The notes under the pieces: model-generated | Database searches by the model: none | What the model was told of the DNA's origin: nothing | The model's input: only the letters and a program-made list of their open reading frames with translations | Program-made: the position numbers and the translations under genes | Shown: piece by piece, positions 3,171-11,755 of the stretch | Layout of the letters: the number at the start of each line of letters is the position of its first letter | How positions within the stretch are numbered: the first letter of the stretch is position 1 | Assembly (NCBI GenBank): GCA_030040115.1 | Contig: JASHUH010000539.1 | Coordinates: forward strand, 1 to 11,918 | Direction of reading: 5' to 3' | Length of the DNA: 11,918 nt | Source: Acidobacteriaceae bacterium | GTDB taxonomy: Bacteria; Acidobacteriota; Terriglobia; Terriglobales; Acidobacteriaceae

Positions 3171-3740
3171 ATGACTGAAGTATTGATGGCCGAGGACGGC
3201 GCAGCGGCGCACGGCCGAGCGCTCATCGCTCAAAACCACGATGGCGCCGGAATGCGCATCTTCATTCGCTCTCACGCCGACATTCTGGAGGCGCGCAGGA
3301 GCGGCCGGGAGTTGGCGCGGGAAATGGGATTCTCAACTCTCGATTGTATTTTGATTGTCGCGGCTATTTCCGAGCTAGCGCGGAATATCGTGCTTTATGC
3401 TCAGCATGGCGAAATCCGGCTTCGCCCCGAGGCGCTGGCGGGCGACGCCAGCATCGAAATCACAGCCGCGGATTGCGGCCCCGGAATCCGCGACGCTCGC
3501 CGCGCGATCGATGACGGGACCTCCATGATAGATAGCCTGGGGCTTGGCTTGCCTGGCGTCAAGCGGATCATGGACGATTTTGAAATTGTCTCCAAGCCTG
3601 GTCGAGGCGCCACTGTAAGGGTGAGGAAATGGAAGACAAAGCGCACGCATCTGCGCGGCCACACCCAAAAATCGCGCCCCTCCGACTGCGAAGCGCTGCC
3701 CGGGGAGTCTCGAGGTGAAACGGCGGTCAGAAATGCATGA
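3171..3740 (+). CDS. RsbT-like serine/threonine kinase (HATPase_c, anti-sigma regulatory factor family)
   Basis: 189 residues. The GHKL ATPase fold is clear: helix leading to ISELARNI (66-73, N-box Glu68 and Asn72), DCGPGI (101-106, G1 box), SLGLGLPGVKRIMDDF (122-137, G2 box) and a closing strand with RKW (152-154). The order and wording match Bacillus RsbT, the switch kinase that phosphorylates RsbS/RsbR in the stressosome and, when free, binds the N-terminus of RsbU to activate it. B. subtilis RsbT is 133 aa. This protein has about 27 extra residues before the core at Met28 and about 35 after the KW motif. The start at 3171 has no visible Shine-Dalgarno; ATG at 3186 or 3252 is possible. The stop overlaps the next start as ATGA (3737-3740), which implies translational coupling with the histidine kinase. 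No rsbR or rsbS is in the window, so the upstream partner is unknown. Confidence 0.87.
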   Translation: MTEVLMAEDGAAAHGRALIAQNHDGAGMRIFIRSHADILEARRSGRELAREMGFSTLDCILIVAAISELARNIVLYAQHGEIRLRPEALAGDASIEITAADCGPGIRDARRAIDDGTSMIDSLGLGLPGVKRIMDDFEIVSKPGRGATVRVRKWKTKRTHLRGHTQKSRPSDCEALPGESRGETAVRNA

Positions 3741-4741
3741 GCGAAATGCACCGCTTTGAGAATGACCTTGAACTCAGCTATACGCGCTCAGTAGCGAGAT
3801 ATTTGCTGACCGGAGGAGAAGCTCCGCTCGAAGAAGCGTACGAGCTGGGGAGGAAGAAGCTCACCGCCGGAGGCGGGGTGTTGGACATGGTGAATCTGCA
3901 CCACGCCGCCATCACTTCGATTCTGAAGGATGACTCCATCGGCCTTCCGCCGGCGGAAACGATCCGCCGAGCCTGCGAGTTTCTTGCCGAAAGCATGTCC
4001 CCATTCGAGATGACTCATCGCGCCATCGGCGAGGCTAATTCGGCGTTACGGAAACTGAACGAAACCCTCGAAGAGGAAGTGCAACGCATCGCATTGGCGC
4101 TGCACGACGATGCGGGTCAACTGATGGTGGCCGTACACCTGAGCCTCGACGAAGCGGTGCGGGATATGCCTGCGGAGATTCAAGGGCGAATGAGCGGAGT
4201 CAGGACACTGCTCGGCCTGGTGGAGGACCGCATACGCGATCTCTCGCACGAGCTTCATCCGGCCCTGCTCGATCATCTGGGCCTGATTCCCGCCATCGAG
4301 TTTCTCGCCGCCAATGTGAGCCAACGCACGGGGTTGCGCATCACTGTGGACTCCACACTCGATGTCCGCCTGCCTCCAGCGATGGCCATCGCCTTCTACC
4401 GCATCGTTCAGGAAGCTCTCACCAACGTCCGCCGTCACGCCCAGGCCACCCGCGTGCGCATCCGCATCGGCAGATCGGGACCGCAACTTCGCTGCACGGT
4501 GAGCGATGATGGCGTGGGATTCGATCCGGCAAAGACCGTCGCTTCCAACTTCACCGGACTGGGCCTACGTGGCATCCGGGAACGCCTGCATGCCCTGGGC
4601 GGCAAACTCCGCATCCAATCAGCCGGGGGCCGGGGCGCCAAAGTCGAAGCCACAGCTCCGTTGCAGGTGGTTCATGCCGATTCAACTTCTGCTCGCCGAC
4701 GATCATCCCGTGGTTCGAGACGGGTTGCGCGTCATCCTTGA
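3737..4741 (+). CDS. Cytosolic sensor histidine kinase (HisKA_3/HATPase_c) with RsbU-N-like input domain
   Basis: 334 residues, no membrane segment and no PAS or GAF domain. Residues about 115-310 are a NarX/DegS-type kinase: H-box with phosphoacceptor His123 in ALHDDAGQ (121-128), second helix SHELHPALLDHLGL (170-183), N-box EALTNVRRHA (226-235), G1 SDDGVGFD (256-263) and G2 GLGLRGIRERL (274-284). Residues 7-108 are helical and align by eye with the N-terminal domain of B. subtilis RsbU: YxxxxxRYL (15-23), AYxxGRKxL (34-42), HHxAI (55-59), then EFLAES (81-86). In RsbU that domain binds RsbT. Placement directly after an RsbT-like gene, with a 4-nt ATGA overlap, makes RsbT-type binding the likely input. 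Expected partner is the following response regulator. The last 25 residues, including an Arg/Ser-rich stretch, lie beyond the ATPase fold and come from overlap with the regulator gene. ATG at 3746 is an alternative start. Confidence 0.88.
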   Translation: MSEMHRFENDLELSYTRSVARYLLTGGEAPLEEAYELGRKKLTAGGGVLDMVNLHHAAITSILKDDSIGLPPAETIRRACEFLAESMSPFEMTHRAIGEANSALRKLNETLEEEVQRIALALHDDAGQLMVAVHLSLDEAVRDMPAEIQGRMSGVRTLLGLVEDRIRDLSHELHPALLDHLGLIPAIEFLAANVSQRTGLRITVDSTLDVRLPPAMAIAFYRIVQEALTNVRRHAQATRVRIRIGRSGPQLRCTVSDDGVGFDPAKTVASNFTGLGLRGIRERLHALGGKLRIQSAGGRGAKVEATAPLQVVHADSTSARRRSSRGSRRVARHP

Positions 4742-5306
4742 ACGGGAGGGCTTTAAGGTCATCGCGGAAGCCGCGAATGGCCGCGAAGCGGTGGAGTGGT
4801 GCGAAAAGCTCCATCCCGATATAGCGGTTTTAGATCTTTCCATGCCGCTGCTCAACGGCATCGACGCCGCCCGGGAAATTCGGCGCGTTTCGGCCGACAC
4901 CAAAACCATCATCCTTACCATGCACAATGAGCGTCACTTCATTCTCGCGGGATTACGCGCCGGCACGCGCGGCTTTGTGATGAAGACACGCAGCGCCGTG
5001 GAACTGGTCCACGCGGTCCGCGAGGCCGCGCGCGGGGGCGCCTTTTTCAGTCCGGAAGTTACGCAGGCTGCAGTGGAGGCCTACCAGAACAAATCGGAGT
5101 TGCCCGAGGATCCGCTGACGCCGCGCGAACGCCAGGTGTTGCAGTTGATCGCTGAAAGCAAGACCACCAAGGAAATCGCTCCGCTGCTCGGCATCAGCGT
5201 GAAGACCGTCGAAACCTACCGCAGCCGCATCATGGAGAAACTGGGAATTCACCAGACCGCCGGCGTGGTGCGCTACGCCATCCGCCACGGCGTCGTGGAA
5301 CCGTAA
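4674..5306 (+). CDS. NarL/FixJ-family response regulator (REC-LuxR HTH)
   Basis: 210 residues. The receiver domain (1-120) has the acidic pair Asp9-Asp10, phosphoacceptor Asp54 in VLDLSMP (52-58), Thr82 in ILTMH and Lys104 in VMKT. The LuxR-type helix-turn-helix spans about 148-206: LTPRERQVLQLIAES, then KEIAPLLGISVKTVETYRSR. It should bind DNA as a dimer after phosphorylation by the preceding histidine kinase and activate or repress transcription. The start at ATG 4674 is set by the receiver fold (IQLLLADDHP at once) and by AGG at 4665-4667, six nt upstream. This start lies inside the kinase gene, giving a 68-nt overlap in another frame. The stop is only 5 nt from the convergent thiolase stop. 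Its target genes cannot be read from the window. Confidence 0.94.
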   Translation: MPIQLLLADDHPVVRDGLRVILEREGFKVIAEAANGREAVEWCEKLHPDIAVLDLSMPLLNGIDAAREIRRVSADTKTIILTMHNERHFILAGLRAGTRGFVMKTRSAVELVHAVREAARGGAFFSPEVTQAAVEAYQNKSELPEDPLTPRERQVLQLIAESKTTKEIAPLLGISVKTVETYRSRIMEKLGIHQTAGVVRYAIRHGVVEP

Positions 5307-5311
5307 TCGCG

Positions 5312-6502
5312 CTACTCGGCCCGCTCTAAAGCCATGGCCGTTGCTTCTCCGCCGCCAATGCAAAGCGTGGCCATTCCCCGCTTCAGGCCGTATATGTCGA
5401 GCGCCGCCAGTAAAGTAACCAGAATGCGGGCGCCCGAAGCGCCAATGGGATGGCCCAAGGCGCAGGCGCCTCCGTGCACGTTTAGTTTGTCGTGCGGCAG
5501 GCCGAGATCGCGCATGGCGGCCATAGCCACCACGGCGAACGCCTCGTTGATTTCAAACAGATCCACGCTGTCGACTGTCCATCCGGTGCGCTCGACAAGC
5601 GCGCGAATGGCCCCGATAGGCGCGGTCGGAAAAAGATGCGCCGCTTGCGCGTAAGTGGCGTGTCCAGCGATGATAGCCAGCGGGCGGATGCCGCGGCGCT
5701 CCGCCTCCGAGCGCCGCATCAGCACCAGCGAAGCGGCGCCGTCGGCAATCGAGCTGGAATTGGCTGCGGTGACTGTGCCGCCCTCCCGAAAGGCTGGCTT
5801 GAGCAAGCGGATCTTTTCGAGAATCGTCTTCAGCGGCAATTCGTCTTGCGCCACTTCGCGCTGGCTCTTGCCCGATCGCACCGTGACTGGCGTAATCTCC
5901 GCCGCAAAGCTGCCGTCGGCAATGGCCTTTTGCGCGCGCGTGAGCGATGCCGCCGCATATTCGTCCTGCGCTTCCCGCGAAAACGAGAAGCAATGCGCAC
6001 AATCCTCCGCAAATGCGCCCATCAGCCGTCCTTTGTCATAGGCGTCTTCGAGACCGTCGAAAAACATATGATCGATCACGCGGCCGTGGCCCATGCGATA
6101 ACCGGCGCGCGCACGGTCCAGCAGATAAGGCGCGTTGCTCATGCTTTCCATGCCGCCGCCCACCGCAATTTTCGCGCTGCCGGCCACGATGGCGTCGTGA
6201 GCCAGCATCACTGCTTTCATGCCCGAACCGCACATCTTGTTGACCGTAGTTGCCGGCGTGGAAATCGCCACACCCGCTCCCAGCGCGGCCTGCCGCGCGG
6301 GCGCCTGACCCAATCCCGCAGGAAGCACGCAGCCGAACAGAACCTCGTCCACGGAATCGCCGGGAACGGCAGCGCGCTCAATGCTGGCGCGAATCGCGGC
6401 CGCGCCCAACTCGGGGGCTGCGGCGTCTTTCAAATCGCCTTGAAATCCGCCGATGGGGGTGCGCGCTGCGCCGGCAATCACAATGGGATCATGGGAAGTC
6501 AT
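5312..6502 (-). CDS. Acetyl-CoA C-acyltransferase (thiolase; acetoacetyl/2-methylacetoacetyl-CoA type)
   Basis: 396 residues, the normal length for a type II thiolase. Catalytic residues are all in place: nucleophile Cys91 in NKMCGSGMKA, His351 in ALGHPIGASG, and acid/base Cys381 in TLCIGGGEA; NEAFAV (319-324) also fits. It catalyses CoA-dependent cleavage, or the reverse condensation, of a 3-ketoacyl-CoA. The gene lies 15 nt downstream of the SDR dehydrogenase gene in one minus-strand operon and near an ACADSB-like dehydrogenase. Cleavage of 2-methylacetoacetyl-CoA to acetyl-CoA and propionyl-CoA (isoleucine) and of acetoacetyl-CoA (leucine, after CoA transfer) is therefore the most likely role, as for mitochondrial ACAT1. 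A role in polyhydroxybutyrate synthesis (PhaA) cannot be excluded from sequence alone, but no phaB or phaC is seen. Start ATG 6502; the Shine-Dalgarno is weak (AGG 9 nt away), consistent with coupling to the upstream gene. Confidence 0.94.
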   Translation of the reverse strand: MTSHDPIVIAGAARTPIGGFQGDLKDAAAPELGAAAIRASIERAAVPGDSVDEVLFGCVLPAGLGQAPARQAALGAGVAISTPATTVNKMCGSGMKAVMLAHDAIVAGSAKIAVGGGMESMSNAPYLLDRARAGYRMGHGRVIDHMFFDGLEDAYDKGRLMGAFAEDCAHCFSFSREAQDEYAAASLTRAQKAIADGSFAAEITPVTVRSGKSQREVAQDELPLKTILEKIRLLKPAFREGGTVTAANSSSIADGAASLVLMRRSEAERRGIRPLAIIAGHATYAQAAHLFPTAPIGAIRALVERTGWTVDSVDLFEINEAFAVVAMAAMRDLGLPHDKLNVHGGACALGHPIGASGARILVTLLAALDIYGLKRGMATLCIGGGEATAMALERAE

Positions 6503-6517
6503 GGCGGGTTGCCTAAG

Positions 6518-7285
6518 TCACCTTGGAGCCATGCGCAGCGCGCCATCGAGGCGGATGGTTTCCCCATTCAGCATCTGGTTCTCGCAGATCTGCTTCACCA
6601 GTGCCGCATACTCCTCCGGCCGTCCCAGGCGCGGGGGAAATGGAACGATCTTGCCGATCGCCTGTTGCACTTCGTCTGTGAATCCGGCCATCATGGGTGT
6701 CGCAAAAACTCCCGGTGCAATCGTAACGACCCGGATGCCATGCCGCGCCAACTCGCGCGCCGCCGGCAGGGTGAGCGCCGCTACGCCTCCCTTGGATGCG
6801 GCGTAAGCGGTCTGGCCGATTTGGCCCTCAAAGGCCGCCACCGAAGCGGTGTTGACAATCACGCCGCGCTCGCCGTCCACACCTGGATCTTCTTGGGCGA
6901 TGGCGTCAGCGGCGAGCCGCATCATGTTGAATGTCCCGACCAGATTGATGCTCACCACTTTGGCGAAGATGTCCAGGCGATGCGGACCCTCGCGGCCGAG
7001 GATTTTCTCTGCGGGCGCAATGCCGGCGCAGTTGACCAATGCGTGCAAATGGCCAAAACTTGTGACGGCAAGATCCACTGCCGCCTGCGCGTCCGCTTCG
7101 CTGGTCACGTCGGTCGCAGCGAAACGGGCCGAACCACCCAAATCTTCGGCAATGGCTTCGCCGGCCGCGCGGTTCACGTCGGCCGCCACCACCCGCCCGC
7201 CTTCGTTGACCACCATCCGCGCCGTGGCCGCGCCCAGCCCAGATGCCGCGCCGGTCACCAGAAACACGTGGTCCCGAATCTGCAT
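6518..7285 (-). CDS. SDR 3-hydroxyacyl-CoA dehydrogenase, HSD17B10-like (2-methyl-3-hydroxybutyryl-CoA dehydrogenase)
   Basis: 255 residues, classical short-chain dehydrogenase. TGAASGLG (11-18) is the nucleotide loop and Asp36 follows strand two, favouring NAD over NADP. NCAG (85-88), Asn114, Ser148 in [14 protein letters not shown], and Tyr161 with Lys165 in YAASK form the active site. The inserts PGVDGERG and [10 protein letters not shown] and the ending [17 protein letters not shown] match the type II 3-hydroxyacyl-CoA dehydrogenase (HSD17B10) subfamily. That enzyme oxidises 2-methyl-3-hydroxybutyryl-CoA in isoleucine degradation and straight short chains as well. Start ATG 7285 is chosen because AAAGGCGGA lies 5 nt upstream and the SDR fold begins at once. 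An upstream in-frame extension to 7390 would run back through the divergent promoter gap and has no SDR homology. First gene of a two-gene minus operon with the thiolase. Confidence 0.92.
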
Positions 7286-7404
7286 CGCAATCCGCCTTTC
7301 AAGCGCGCGTCTGTAGGGCTCATCGCGTAGGGGCGGGGAATCACTGAAAATCCATCTGTCATAATACTCCAGGGATCGAAGGGCCACCAAAAGGGGAGAA
7401 GCCG
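7286..7404. promoter_or_regulatory. Divergent promoter region between the SDR-thiolase and ACAD-scoAB operons
   Basis: A 119-bp gap between two divergent start codons, so it must hold both promoters or be bordered by them. An AT-rich patch at 7360-7366 offers CATAAT on the plus strand and TATTAT on the minus strand as possible -10 boxes. For the minus strand, TTGGTG (7385-7390) sits 18 nt upstream as a partial -35. No clear operator palindrome was seen. Box assignments are weak. Confidence 0.35.
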
Positions 7405-8565
7405 GTGGAAATGGTTTCGGCGCCGCGCACGGTCACCTGCTTGAGCGACGATGAGCTGCTCTTTCGCGATACGGTGCGCCGCTTTGCCGAAGAAGAAATT
7501 GCGCCCCTGGTCCGGCGCATGGATGAAGAACAGAAAATGGACGCGGGGCTGGTGCGGCGGCTCTTCGCTCTTGGCCTGATGGGCATCCCCATCCCGGAAC
7601 AACATGGCGGCGGCGGCGGCTCATTTTTCGATTCCGTGCTTGCCGTGGAAATGGTTTCCACTGTCGATCCCGCGGTGGGCGTTCTGGTGGATGTGCAGAA
7701 CACGCTGGTCGCGAACGCGTTGATCTGCTGGGCCACGCCGGAGCAGAGAGCCAACTATCTTCCCCGGCTGGCCGCGGATACGGTGGGCGCGTATGCGCTG
7801 AGCGAGGCCGCTTCGGGCTCCGACGCTTTCGCGCTCGAAACACGCGCTGAGCGCCGCGGCGACGCGTATGTGCTGAACGGGCGCAAGCTCTGGATCACGA
7901 ACGCCAGAGAAGCGGGACTGTTTATTGTCTTCGCCACCATTGACGCGCGCGCGGGTTACAAAGGGATCACAGCATTTGTCGTAGAAAAGGATGCGCCCGG
8001 ATTCACCGTGGGCAGAAAAGAAGATAAGTTGGGCATTCGCGCTTCGAGCACTTGCGAGCTGATCTTCGATGAGTGCCTGGTTCCGGCTGCGCAAGTGCTC
8101 GGTGAACCCGGCAAGGGTTACAAAATCGCCATTGAAACGTTGAACGAAGGCCGCATCGCCATTGGCGCGCAGATGCTCGGGCTGGCCGAGGGCGCATGGC
8201 GGCACGCGGCCCAATACGCCAAAGAGCGCAAGCAGTTCGGCAAGCCCATCGTCGAATTCCAAGCCATGCAATTCCAGCTTGCGGAGATGGCCACCGAGAT
8301 CGAGGCCGCGCGGCTCATGGTCTACAACGCCGCTCGACTGAAAGACGCGCAGCTACCGTTCCGCAAAGAAGCGGCTATGTGCAAGTATTTCGCCTCACGA
8401 ATGGCCGAGCGGGTGGCCAGCCTTGCGGTGGAGATTTTCGGCGGCGTCGGGTTTGTACGCGATTATCCGGTGGAGAAGCTCTATCGCGACGCGAAAATCG
8501 GCAAAATTTATGAAGGCACGTCGTTCATGCAACTGGCGACCATCGCAAAACTGACGCTGGACTAG
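7405..8565 (+). CDS. Acyl-CoA dehydrogenase, short/branched-chain type (ACADSB-like, 2-methylbutyryl-CoA dehydrogenase)
   Basis: 386 residues, a full-length FAD-dependent acyl-CoA dehydrogenase. FAD/substrate motifs: [11 protein letters not shown] (130-140), WITNA (163-167), RKQFGK (275-280). The catalytic base is Glu370 in KIYEGTS. Several stretches recalled from human ACADSB recur closely: LVDVQNTL (94-101), GYKGIT (184-189), [10 protein letters not shown] (208-217) and [14 protein letters not shown] (353-366). This points to oxidation of 2-methylbutyryl-CoA, and probably isobutyryl- and butyryl-CoA, passing electrons to ETF. The start is GTG 7405, favoured over ATG 7411 because GGGGAG (7393-7398) is then about 6 nt upstream. 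First gene of a plus-strand operon with the CoA-transferase subunits, divergent from the SDR-thiolase pair that would take its product after hydration. Substrate range is inferred. Confidence 0.92.
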
Positions 8566-8603
8566 AAAACCAGGGCGCGCGGCACTGGACGAGGAGCGAA
8601 ACA

Positions 8604-9332
8604 ATGGATGAATCGAGCGAGCGCACACAGGGCCTGAATAAGCTATGGCCCGATGCGCGCGCGGCGCTGGACGGCATTGTGCGCGATGGAATGCTGCTGG
8701 CGATCGGCGGCTTCGGGTTGTGCGGCATCCCCGAGGCCTTGATTCTGGCTCTGCGGGAAACTGGCGCGCGCAACCTCACGGTAGCCAGCAATAACGCGGG
8801 GGTCGACGGCTGGGGCTTGGGATTGCTGCTGGAAACGCATCAAATCAAAAAGATGATCTCGAGTTATGTGGGTGAAAACGCTGAATTCGAGCGCCAGTAT
8901 CTGGCCGGCGAGCTGGAACTTGAGTTCTGTCCGCAAGGCACGCTCGCCGAACGCATCCGCGCGAGCGGCGCGGGCATTCCCGCGTTCTACACCCGCACCG
9001 GGGTAGGCACGGTGGTCGCCGAAGGCAAAGAGCACAAACAGTTCGATGGAGTTACCTACATCCTCGAGCGCGGCATTCAGGCCGACCTGGCCCTGGTCAA
9101 AGCGTGGAAGGCTGACCTGCATGGCAATCTCATTTATCGCCGAACCGCGCGCAATTTTAATCCCAACGTCGCCACTTGCGGAAAGATGACCGTGGCCGAG
9201 GCGGAGATTGTCGTCGAGCCCGGCGAACTCGATCCCGACGAGATTCACACGCCGGGCATCTTTGTGCACCGGCTGGTGCATAATCCCCATCCTGAAAAGC
9301 GCATCGAAAAGAGAACGGTGCGGGAAAGCTAA
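8604..9332 (+). CDS. scoA: 3-oxoacid CoA-transferase subunit A
   Basis: 242 residues, family I CoA transferase alpha subunit. Signature [10 protein letters not shown] (35-44) and [12 protein letters not shown] (62-73), followed by [20 protein letters not shown] and [11 protein letters not shown], are the SCOT/ScoA pattern; [11 protein letters not shown] and RTARNFNP are further family blocks. With subunit B it moves CoA from succinyl-CoA to acetoacetate, giving acetoacetyl-CoA for the thiolase, the step after HMG-CoA lyase in leucine breakdown. Start ATG 8604 has a strong GAGGAG (8591-8596) 7 nt upstream. The gap after the acyl-CoA dehydrogenase is 38 nt, so the genes are probably co-transcribed. 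An acetate- or butyrate-type donor (AtoDA-like) is possible, but the motifs read closer to SCOT. Confidence 0.94.
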
Positions 9333-9334
9333 CC

Positions 9335-10036
9335 ATGGTTCGCTGGGAGTTGAAAGCGGACCGCCGAAAACTGGATTCCGCCATGGCTTGGACACGTCAA
9401 CTGATGGCCGCACGCGCCGCACGGGAATTGCGCGATGGCTTCTATGTCAATCTCGGCATCGGCATTCCCACCCTGGTCGCTAACTACATTCCCGCCGGCG
9501 TGACCGTGACACTGCAATCGGAAAACGGATTGCTCGGCATGGGGCCCTTCCCGCGCCCATGGGAAGTGGACGCGGACCTGATCAACGCGGGCAAGGAGAC
9601 TGTAACGCTGGCGCCCGGCGCCGCCACCTTTTCGAGCGCCGACTCTTTCGCCATGATTCGCGGCGGCCACATCGACCTGGCGATCCTCGGCGCCATGCAG
9701 GTCTCCGAGCGCGGCGACCTGGCGAACTGGATGATTCCGGGTAAGCGCGTGAAAGGAATGGGCGGGGCCATGGACCTGGTCTCCGGCGTCCGGCGCGTCG
9801 TTGTGATCATGGAGCACACCGCTTCCGATGGCGCGGCGAAGCTGCTACGGCAATGCACGCTGCCGCTCACCGGAGCCGGAGTCGTGAACCGCGTCATCAC
9901 CGATCTTTGCGTGCTCGACGTCACGCCCTCGGGGTTCGCAGTCATCGAGCTTGCGGAAGGCGTCACCCCCGGGCAGGTCGAGCAGCGCACCGGGGCGCCG
10001 GTGCGGTTCATCCATCCCTCAACGCACGCCCGCTGA
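9335..10036 (+). CDS. scoB: 3-oxoacid CoA-transferase subunit B
   Basis: 233 residues from ATG 9335, or 217 from ATG 9383. It carries the catalytic Glu63 in [12 protein letters not shown], the residue that forms the enzyme-CoA thioester. Family blocks are [18 protein letters not shown] (36-53), [29 protein letters not shown] and [10 protein letters not shown]. The ATG at 9335 lies 2 nt after the scoA stop, typical of coupled subunits, and is used here. However, known ScoB/AtoA proteins start at the equivalent of 9383 ([19 protein letters not shown]), and the first 16 residues match nothing in the family, so 9383 may be the real start. The 3' end overlaps the convergent hydratase gene by 18 nt. 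Works as a complex with the preceding gene product. Confidence 0.93.
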
Positions 10037-10819
10037 GTTCGTCCACACCGCCTTCCGTTTCTCGAGGAAGGCCGCAATGCCCTCGCGATAGTCCGCGGTC
10101 TCCCGCGCGCGCGCGTTGGTTTCGATCGCCAGTTCAATCGCGGCGTCGAGGTGCGGCTTATTCTGCGCCGCGAGTAGCTGCTTGGTCGCGGCGAGCGATT
10201 GCGGGCTGTTGGTGAGCAGCGTCGCTGCGAGTTCTTCGACCCGATGGGCGAGCGACTCCCCGGGAGGCACAACCGCGTTGATCAGGCCGATTTCCAAGGC
10301 CTCGTCGGCGTCGAAAATGCGTGCGGTCAGCAACAGGTCGCGGGCTCGCTTGGTGTCGCCTAACTGCAGCAAAAGAAATACCGAGACCAGAGCGGGCACA
10401 AAGCCGAGCCGCGCTTCGGTAAAGCCGAAACGCGCCGTGCGCGCAGCCACCACAAAATCGCAGATAATCGCGAGTCCCGCTCCGCCTGCGATCGCGGCGC
10501 CATGCACCGCTGCAATGGTCGGGATGGGCAGCTCATAGAGAGTGCGAAAAAGCTTGGCCGCACGTTCCGCATCGGCGCGATACGCCGCGGTGGTCTCATT
10601 CTTCACTCTATCCAACACCTTCAGATCGAGACCCGCACAAAACGCGAGGCCCGCTCCGCCGAGCACCAGCACCCGGCAATCGCACTTTGTCGCATCTTCC
10701 AGCGCGGCAATCAGTTCCGTCTGCATCTCCGCGGTCATGGCGTTGCGCCGCTCGGGTCGATTCATCCTTACGATGCGAATGGGCCCTTTGTCCTCGACCG
10801 TAATCGTCGTATAACTCAA
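10019..10819 (-). CDS. Enoyl-CoA hydratase/isomerase family, LiuC-like (methylglutaconyl-CoA hydratase candidate)
   Basis: 266 residues, crotonase fold. NRPERRNAM (20-28) and the oxyanion-hole segment AFCAGLDL (59-66) are typical, as is [16 protein letters not shown] (106-121). Glu135 in [16 protein letters not shown] corresponds to the second catalytic Glu of rat hydratase. The first catalytic Glu position is Gly115. GGxGL together with VPALVS is, from memory, the pattern of bacterial LiuC-type proteins, which hydrate 3-methylglutaconyl-CoA to HMG-CoA. The next gene upstream in the operon, 54 nt away, is HMG-CoA lyase, which fits that role. The start is TTG 10819, because GAGGAGG lies 5 nt before it and the first beta strand ([17 protein letters not shown]) is needed for the fold; ATG 10822-10824 runs into a stop after two codons. 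Hydration of tiglyl-CoA in the isoleucine route is an alternative. Confidence 0.9.
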
Positions 10820-10824
10820 TCCAT

Positions 10825-10831
10825 CCTCCTC
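10825..10831 (-). promoter_or_regulatory. Strong Shine-Dalgarno fixing the TTG start of the hydratase gene
   Basis: On the minus strand GAGGAGG is followed by ATGGA and then the TTG at 10819. The ATG in the spacer opens ATG-GAT-TGA, a two-codon frame, so it cannot be the gene start. This site decides for TTG. Confidence 0.6.
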
Positions 10832-10873
10832 GTTCCGGCAATCGCGCGGCGTCCTCTCTCCCGTGTCTGTCCG

Positions 10874-11746
10874 CTACCGCATAAGCGTACCAAAGCCGCG
10901 CGCAATTTCCGCGCCGGCTTGGATCAAATGGTCGAGCGTCCCCAGCGATGGCAGCGCGGCGCCGCACGTCGATAGCTCGGCAAGCAGCCTTTCCGTGGAA
11001 ATGTTCGCGACCAGTGCGTCCTGCGCAAATGGGCAACCGCCCAGGCCGCCAATCGCCGCGTCAAATCGCCTGCACCCCGCCTCGTAGGCCGCGCGAATGC
11101 GCGCCGATGCTTCGTCCGGCCGCGCGTGAAGGTGCACGCCTACCTCGACACTGGGATGCGCCGCAATCGCCGCAGCTATCGTCTCTGCGATCTTTTCCGG
11201 CGCTGCCAATCCTACCGTGTCGGCGAGCGATACTTGCTGCGCGCCGGCATCGATCATTTTTGCGCACCCATCCGCCACGGCGTCCGTGCTCCACGCCTCG
11301 CCGTACGGATTGCCGAAAGCCATCGAAAGATAGGCGATAATCGCTAGTCCGGCATCGTGCGCTCGGGCTGCGATGGCCTTCAGTACGATCAAAGCTTCTT
11401 CCGGCGATTGATGCTGATTGCGGCGCAGAAATTCTCGAGAAATGGAGTAAGGAAACCCGAGCGTCGCAACCGCGCCGGTCCCGATCGCGCGCTCGGCCCC
11501 TTTTTCATTCACCACGATGCCAATGATTTCGACGTGCTTCGGTGGCGCAAGCAGTTCCAGCACGCGTTCTGAGTCCGCCATTTGCGGAATCGCCGCCGGC
11601 GAAACGAAACTCACAGCGTCGATGTGCCTGAACCCGGCATGAATTAAGGCGCGCAGATATGCGGCCTTGGTTTCGGGCGGTATGTGCCCGGGCAGCCCTT
11701 GCCACGCATCGCGCGGACATTCGACGATCTTGACCGCCTGGCTCAT
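10874..11746 (-). CDS. Hydroxymethylglutaryl-CoA lyase (HMGL-like TIM barrel)
   Basis: 290 residues from ATG 11746. The N-terminal VKIVECPRDAWQG (5-17) carries the Arg12-Asp13 pair expected for catalysis and Mg binding. SFVSPAAIPQMADSERVL (46-63) is the HMGL signature region. VHLHARPD (204-211) gives metal ligands His205 and His207; GGLGGCPFAQ (233-242) holds the flexible-loop Cys238, and Asn248 follows. It would cleave HMG-CoA to acetyl-CoA and acetoacetate, the last leucine-specific step. The wording ECPRDAWQ, LGFPYSIS and AYLSMAFGNPYG differs from mitochondrial HMGCL (EVGPRDGLQNE) and recalls the divergent HMGLs of Bacteroidetes, known from memory only. An in-frame TTG at 11752 is less likely. 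No clear Shine-Dalgarno is present; the upstream sequence is a heptamer repeat that reaches to within 10 nt of the ATG. Sits between a partial acyl-CoA dehydrogenase gene and the hydratase in one minus-strand operon. Confidence 0.9.
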   Translation of the reverse strand: MSQAVKIVECPRDAWQGLPGHIPPETKAAYLRALIHAGFRHIDAVSFVSPAAIPQMADSERVLELLAPPKHVEIIGIVVNEKGAERAIGTGAVATLGFPYSISREFLRRNQHQSPEEALIVLKAIAARAHDAGLAIIAYLSMAFGNPYGEAWSTDAVADGCAKMIDAGAQQVSLADTVGLAAPEKIAETIAAAIAAHPSVEVGVHLHARPDEASARIRAAYEAGCRRFDAAIGGLGGCPFAQDALVANISTERLLAELSTCGAALPSLGTLDHLIQAGAEIARGFGTLMR

Positions 11747-11755
11747 AAACAAGCT

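Follow-up and report, generated by a model that had tools for sequence, protein, structure and literature searches.

RsbT-type switch proteins have been tied to effectors of several kinds. Histidine kinases that are encoded in RsbT operons and carry RsbU N-terminal domains have been described together with a dimer model (eLife 2025, PMC12143880), RsbU_N-like domains have been noted on some proteins downstream of RSTX (rsbR-rsbS-rsbT-rsbX) modules in Proteobacteria (Heinz et al. 2022, PMC9237108), and the diguanylate cyclase MtG of Moorella thermoacetica has been presented as a stressosome effector (Quin et al. 2012, as cited in PMC12143880 and PMC4976288). For RsbU N-domains that plug RsbT into histidine kinases, the published basis, in the passages that treat them, consists of genome neighbourhoods and predictions. 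Here we describe a locus of this kind in a stretch of 11,918 bp from an Acidobacteriaceae bacterium (contig JASHUH010000539.1 of assembly GCA_030040115.1; the whole stretch is called the window below), in which an RsbT-type gene, a histidine kinase gene and a NarL-type regulator gene follow one another. On balance, we favour the reading that the window preserves the output half of what was once an acidobacterial stressosome operon, in which a freed RsbT serves as a dedicated subunit of the kinase.

The first-pass annotation of this DNA knew of no studied case of an RsbT to histidine kinase link. The arrangement itself is in print, as a genomic pattern and a predicted dimer model; a search of the literature outside subscription papers found no biochemical work on an RsbT and a kinase coupled by RsbU_N, no report of RsbT without RsbS or of an incomplete stressosome of this kind, and, in the text of 5.39 million papers, none naming both RsbT and 'Acidobacteri'. 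Mycobacteria without the whole RsbRST set, as treated in one part of PMC8115616, are a different case from the window. The wiring from RsbT to an RsbU_N histidine kinase is of a known kind, and the apparent stepwise reduction of the operon with a retained RsbT-kinase pair is the new part.

An RsbU_N histidine kinase beside RsbT

The genes lie in an operon-like order (BrkB/YihY, RsbT-type, histidine kinase, NarL-type regulator), with the following features, the upstream neighbour being given last:

3171 to 3740, + strand: RsbT-type GHKL protein, 189 residues (open reading frame, Pfam and alignment), with an N-terminal extension (1-27), an RsbT core (about 28-154) and a C-terminal tail (155-189)
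3468 to 3542, + strand: RsbT codons 100-124, with the Asp motif (ADCGPGI) and the altered, presumed ATP-lid region (DDGTSMIDSLG)
3737 to 4741, + strand: histidine kinase, 334 residues, with RsbU_N, DHp and HATPase_c
3776 to 4012, + strand: RsbU_N domain, kinase residues 14-92 (Pfam and profile search)
3950 to 4159, + strand: single predicted helix, kinase residues 72-141, including His123 (AlphaFold2 monomer model)
4674 to 5306, + strand: NarL/FixJ-type response regulator (Response_reg and GerE), 210 residues
2042 to 3037, + strand: BrkB/YihY-type membrane protein (Pfam/NCBIfam), adjoining the module upstream

The ATGA overlap first described between the RsbT-like gene and the kinase gene is seen at 3737-3740 in the list of open reading frames; kinase and regulator overlap by 68 nt, and the regulator frame in that list opens earlier, at 4506.

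A likeness of kinase residues 7-108 to the N-terminal domain of RsbU had been proposed from an alignment by eye. Searched with the whole kinase, Pfam matches PF08673 (RsbU_N) to residues 14-92 (E = 1e-9, 38.8 bits against a cut-off of 25.5), and the kinase is the sole RsbU_N match over the cut-off in the window genome (4.1 Mb in 649 contigs, 84.7% complete). At the level of sequence, the alignment by eye is thereby confirmed as not due to chance. A profile of 14 N-domains, namely the window's and those of 13 hand-picked kinase homologues (all 14 matching RsbU_N at E ≤ 0.1), placed four B. subtilis RsbU entries at the top of its PDB matches (2j70, 1w53, 2j6z and 2j6y; E from 1.2e-4 to 1.9e-3, with the next match at 0.61); a single-sequence PDB search with the kinase N-domain gave nothing relevant. 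In the kinase homologue search, 8000 candidates were scored and 5047 proteins exceeded the threshold, and precomputed RsbU_N is present on 106 of the best 120, the window's own protein included. The AlphaFold2 model of kinase residues 1-123 shows four helices (pLDDT 92). Foldseek found no match to this model at E ≤ 0.001, and in VIA-align the RsbU entries do appear, but KaiA C-domains and others score higher. Because fold comparison alone does not settle RsbU_N, we let its identity rest on the profile and Pfam matches.

As first annotated, the kinase carries no other sensor that Pfam detects, and HATPase_c (55.8 bits) stands in the place of the C-terminal PP2C (SpoIIE) domain of the RsbU phosphatase. 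HisKA_3 scores 21.3 in the window kinase, under the Pfam cut-off of 24, and 26.5, over that cut-off, in a relative (L145); His123 is invariant in 62 aligned kinase rows. In the full-kinase AlphaFold2 model (pLDDT 80), one helix spans residues 72-141 and is predicted to join the last RsbU_N helix, through a linker, to the first DHp helix with His123, and the catalytic half is like VraS (Foldseek E = 2.5e-11) and DesK (E = 5.3e-10). The regulator is of NarL type, as had been stated (Response_reg 99.2 bits, GerE 69.1 bits). Among the listed kinase homologues, a protein of 432 residues (P0115) has PAS domains besides RsbU_N and the kinase domains, which suggests that a single kinase may receive both RsbT and PAS input.

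The RsbT-like protein scores over the Pfam cut-offs for HATPase_c_2 and HATPase_c. Its NCBIfam matches (SpoIIAB, RsbA and RsbW types and one other) are all under cut-off, no RsbT-specific model is among its Pfam and NCBIfam matches, its PHROG match is weak, and a single-sequence PDB search gave nothing useful. Its kinship to the RsbT of RSTX operons is seen in tblastn matches in 39 of 40 mapped loci (see below) and in the alignment, and several of its homologues are labelled 'serine/threonine-protein kinase RsbT' by their source records.

Stressosome operons in relatives and a probable reduction series within the genus

Searching the genomes of the family, order and class with the kinase (E ≤ 1e-60) gave 54 places outside the window genome, of which 40 were fetched with long flanks and mapped by tblastn. 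The order rsbR-rsbS-rsbT-rsbX-kinase is found in 33 of them; the other seven have rsbT only (L141, L142), rsbS and rsbT (L143, L144 and L152, the last at a contig edge), rsbT and rsbX (L148) or none of these genes (L180, on a 3.7-kb contig). At L145, Pfam identifies STAS on RsbR and RsbS, HATPase_c on RsbT and a SpoIIE phosphatase on RsbX, with RsbRD_N on RsbR (23.3 against 24.3) and RsbU_N on the kinase (24.7 against 25.5) just under their cut-offs. What holds RsbT back, a question first left open, is answered in these relatives, where RsbR, RsbS and RsbX belong to the operon; in the window lineage, that control appears to have been lost.

Within a set of 80 genomes of the genus, six contain the kinase at E ≤ 1e-60, and their loci form a series: RSTX in L145, rsbS and rsbT in L143 and L144, and rsbT only in the window, L141 and L142. 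Mapping by tblastn found no rsbR, rsbS or rsbX at the window locus, to which the search for RsbX was confined. The L145 RsbR and RsbS queries were run on whole genomes (E ≤ 1e-6). RsbR had matches in G308, G299 and G029 and none in G000 (the window genome), G350, G342 and G339; RsbS had matches in G339, G308, G299 and G029 and none in G000, G350 and G342, which are the three rsbT-only genomes (G350 is 98% complete with 4% contamination). The earlier statement that the window holds no RsbR or RsbS can thus be extended to the 84.7%-complete genome. Among the STAS matches that were fetched (3 of 3 in G000, 10 of 12 in G350 and 6 of 7 in G342), no protein resembled RsbR or RsbS at E ≤ 0.01 except for two STAS proteins of roughly 250 residues in G350, which match RsbS at 25-27% (E = 4e-4 and 7e-4). 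Upstream of RsbT in the window and L141 there is no convincing relic of rsbS or rsbR (best RsbS match E = 0.053 over 11 residues); an RsbS-like stretch in the L143 gap reaches E = 0.003 over 11 residues, at a locus with a whole rsbS. The C-terminal tail of the window RsbT was considered as a relic of rsbX, with which it shares ALPGESR (RsbX of L084), and was rejected, 20 of 200 shuffles scoring as high; for the other tails the figures were 150 (L141), 184 (L143) and 23 (L142) of 200.

On a midpoint-rooted tree of 44 kinase rows, the six genus kinases form one group (support 100/100), in which the window kinase pairs with that of L141 (100/99). The change within the genus would be one of loss rather than gain, because RSTX is present class-wide: an ancestral rsbR-rsbS-rsbT-rsbX-kinase-regulator operon would have lost rsbR, rsbS and rsbX in the window lineage and kept rsbT, the kinase and the regulator. 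The first interpretation, of an RsbT-type protein linked to a kinase through RsbU_N and followed by a NarL-type regulator, stands in this part. Its proposal that partner switching turns the kinase on or off is doubtful for the window genome, because the searches of the locus and of that genome detected no RsbS or RsbR, the partners from which RsbT switches.

Ordinary partner switching could nevertheless persist if a distant STAS protein, unrecognisable as RsbS or RsbR, sequestered RsbT and were phosphorylated by it. The equivalents of the catalytic residues N49 and D78 are kept in RsbT, G000 does encode further STAS proteins (two that are small and adjoin HATPase_c_2 genes, on C247 and C442, and a third within a 569-residue frame on C140), and G308 shows that two stressosome types can coexist in one genome. 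However, the tblastn queries match none of the three STAS loci of G000, although the same queries did find a divergent second RsbR and RsbS in G308 (E = 8e-34 and 8e-27); the whole-genome searches were empty in all three rsbT-only genomes, and the lid is altered in all three of their RsbTs (see below). We therefore regard persistent partner switching as unlikely.

Several other loci add to the variety of these modules. At L148 (5860-8511, G361), rsbT, rsbX, kinase and regulator have no rsbR or rsbS match alongside, and an RSTX operon (L147) lies elsewhere in the genome, so L148 is possibly a second output of one stressosome. At L152 (217-1745, G401), from another family, the rsbT and kinase matches are separated by about 200 bases that contain no rsbX match, a possible separate loss of rsbX. 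L006 (5900-7532), from a record titled Deltaproteobacteria, has an RsbU_N-type kinase and a regulator with no RsbT, RsbR or RsbS match in the flanks; its kinase forms a long branch among acidobacterial kinases (96/62), perhaps through transfer or a binning error. L213 (3681-8500, G308:C80), from the same genus, is a second, different stressosome (R-S-T), in which RsbT-like domains are fused to a SpoIIE phosphatase (330 residues) and to HisKA-HATPase-REC-REC (719 residues).

Sequence change and selection in RsbT

The window RsbT keeps the N-box (ISELARNI), the Asp motif (DxGPGI, here DCGPGI) and the GLGLPG box, and all three rsbT-only proteins keep this last box and the equivalents of E45, N49, D78, R19 and R23, numbered after what we take to be the B. 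subtilis RsbT sequence. An S-T-S segment, presumably the ATP lid to judge from the GHKL fold, reads S95-T96-S97 in all 39 RsbT rows with rsbS alongside (including the repeats L003 and L085, which duplicate L159 and L149) and is altered in 3 of 3 rsbT-only loci, to SMI in the window, SMT in L141 and NPE in L142. T41A and T124A are also found in the window and L141. At the 55 columns that are at least 90% conserved in the 39 rows, the window, L141 and L142 depart at 8, 8 and 9, and same-genus L143, L144 and L145 at 2, 2 and 1. Lid variants of unknown context (P0122, P0123, P0125-P0127, P0178, P0187, P0191 and others) were left out of this support; P0124, whose motifs equal those of L141, is probably the same protein as the L141 RsbT.

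Window-type RsbT (E ≤ 1e-38) and the kinase occur in the same six of the 80 genus genomes. Seven other genomes have distant RsbT types only, and G308 has one besides (E from 2e-23 to 4e-13); in six of the seven the matches lie in frames of 717-846 residues, and these distant matches may be of the L213 fusion type. Comparing the window with L141 gives NG86 omega values of 0.156 (RsbT core, 127 codons), 0.176 (kinase), 0.084 (regulator) and 0.161 (BrkB); the RsbT core is under purifying selection. The N-terminal extension (0.45) and tail (0.59) of RsbT are looser than its core, and within the kinase the RsbU_N and linker part has 0.264 and the catalytic part 0.098. Short pieces of RsbT gave 0.087, 0.687, 0.235 and 0.032, a piece-to-piece spread that should not be over-read.

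These values bear on the alternative that the module is decaying, with RsbT a functionless relic and the kinase-regulator pair working alone or also on its way out. RsbT does diverge more than its neighbours between the window and L141 (73% against 87-91%), its two ends and one inner piece of 30 codons (0.69) have raised omega, and a kinase-regulator pair without an RsbT match in the fetched flanks exists at L006. The low omega of the core, which falls to 0.032 over its last 31 codons, the intact open reading frames in the window, L141 and L142, and the joint presence of RsbT and kinase in the same genomes make decay quite improbable. That RsbT phosphorylates the histidine kinase as a Ser/Thr kinase instead of docking on RsbU_N is very doubtful as well: RsbT-dependent phosphorylation of downstream proteins has been proposed for Vibrio (in a section of PMC9237108) and cited for the Moorella diguanylate cyclase (in a section of PMC4976288), and the N49 and D78 equivalents would allow it, but the lid motif is altered and the window kinase has an RsbU_N docking domain, unlike the V. 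vulnificus D1 protein behind that proposal.

The BrkB/YihY neighbour, at most a possible member of the module, is also present in same-genus L141-L144 and was not found in L145. A sigma-54 activator-like AAA+/Fis protein is encoded upstream of the operon in L145 (8960-10168) and between BrkB and rsbT or rsbS in L142-L144 (its identity was checked with Pfam in L144), and in the window and L141 no such gene separates BrkB from rsbT. Downstream, at 5312-11752, the window contains what looks by eye like a cluster for fatty-acid or leucine-type catabolism (thiolase, short-chain dehydrogenase, acyl-CoA dehydrogenase, a CoA transferase pair, enoyl-CoA hydratase and an HMG-CoA lyase-like protein).

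RsbT as a probable kinase subunit and comparison with known systems

Under the reading that we favour, the lack of RsbS and RsbR leaves RsbT without a known antagonist, and so it probably belongs to the kinase as a standing, dedicated subunit. Its docking site would most likely be the pair of RsbU_N domains in the kinase dimer, and once docked it would order the long helix and linker into the DHp domain, as proposed for RsbU; the ordered helix would set autophosphorylation at His123, activating rather than inhibiting the kinase, and phosphate would then move to the NarL-type regulator as the output. In relatives with RSTX, RsbT would be gated by the stressosome and reset by RsbX, whereas a standing RsbT subunit might act constitutively, possibly set by its own level, by bound nucleotide or by some ligand. 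The serine-kinase side of RsbT would have been freed from selection, with its lid motif altered.

Going further, RsbT may have been domesticated through the stepwise loss of RsbR, RsbX and RsbS, perhaps on two independent occasions, to become an allosteric histidine kinase subunit whose own kinase activity is impaired, with the lid change ending its job as a switch kinase; we rate this extension as tentative, with the odds slightly against it. Loss of the RsbS-phosphorylating side with the effector side kept would fit a B. subtilis study by Kang, Vijay and Price, whose title reportedly says that activation of the PP2C target does not depend on the serine kinase activity of the switch protein. 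If domestication is true, evolution has separated the two roles that RsbT plays, that of switch kinase and that of effector activator.

The interface residues reported for RsbT and RsbU (RsbT R19, R23, N24 and D92; RsbU E24, Y28 and R91, in the relevant part of PMC12143880) are partly matched: R19 and R23 are both R in the window, the D92 position holds D in the window and in L142 and E in L141, and the kinase counterpart of RsbU E24 is E28, which does not vary among the 62 rows. Other observations weigh against the picture of a docked, kinase-impaired RsbT left by loss of its partners. The window RsbT has E in place of N24, RsbU Tyr28 has no conserved counterpart (the kinase has E32), and RsbU Arg91 lies beyond the aligned stretch, where an ungapped extension would place N101. 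RsbT retains its catalytic N-box and Asp motif, so that loss of its kinase activity is no more than presumed; N49A, by comparison, serves as a kinase-inactive RsbT in Listeria (in a section of PMC7705745). The L148 RsbT keeps its lid (FSTA) though no rsbS adjoins it, and because its genome has the RSTX operon L147, the association of a missing rsbS with an altered lid is framed per genome. Only three rsbT-only loci have known context, and two of their genomes, G000 and G342, are 85% and 88% complete. On the kinase tree, L142 groups with L143 and L144 (95/76) and L145 falls outside the other five with weak support (83/47); with these placements and a midpoint root, rsbS may have been lost once or twice. 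Taken as a whole, the rows without rsbS show no significant clustering on the kinase tree (6 rows; a value as low arose in 93 of 500 shuffles).

The loci of this genus form a natural series (RSTX, ST, T) along which the upstream control disappears and RsbT and its kinase remain paired under selection. The series makes it testable whether RsbU_N is the route by which RsbT sets the activity of a histidine kinase, and which residues of RsbT are there to phosphorylate RsbS as opposed to controlling the effector.

Like the RsbT-RsbU pair of B. subtilis, the window combines an RsbT relative with an RsbU_N docking domain; the B. subtilis effector is a PP2C phosphatase in a sigma-factor cascade, whereas the window has a histidine kinase and a response regulator, with no RsbR, RsbS or RsbX at the locus. 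Proteobacterial RsbRSTX operons share with the window an RsbT that adjoins a signalling protein with an RsbU N-terminal domain, but they keep the stressosome genes that the window locus lacks. Moorella MtG, in the passages that cite it, is like the window kinase in pairing RsbT with an RsbU N-domain on a non-phosphatase effector and unlike it in its GGDEF output and in the presence of a stressosome. The V. vulnificus RsbRSTX-D1-D2 locus is similarly tied to two-component genes; in the relevant section of PMC9237108, no RsbU_N was detected on its outputs and the authors failed to show an interaction between VvRsbT and VvD1. The kinase core and regulator, finally, are as in NarX/DesK/VraS-type kinases with NarL-type regulators, from which the window kinase differs in that RsbU_N is its only recognised N-terminal domain.

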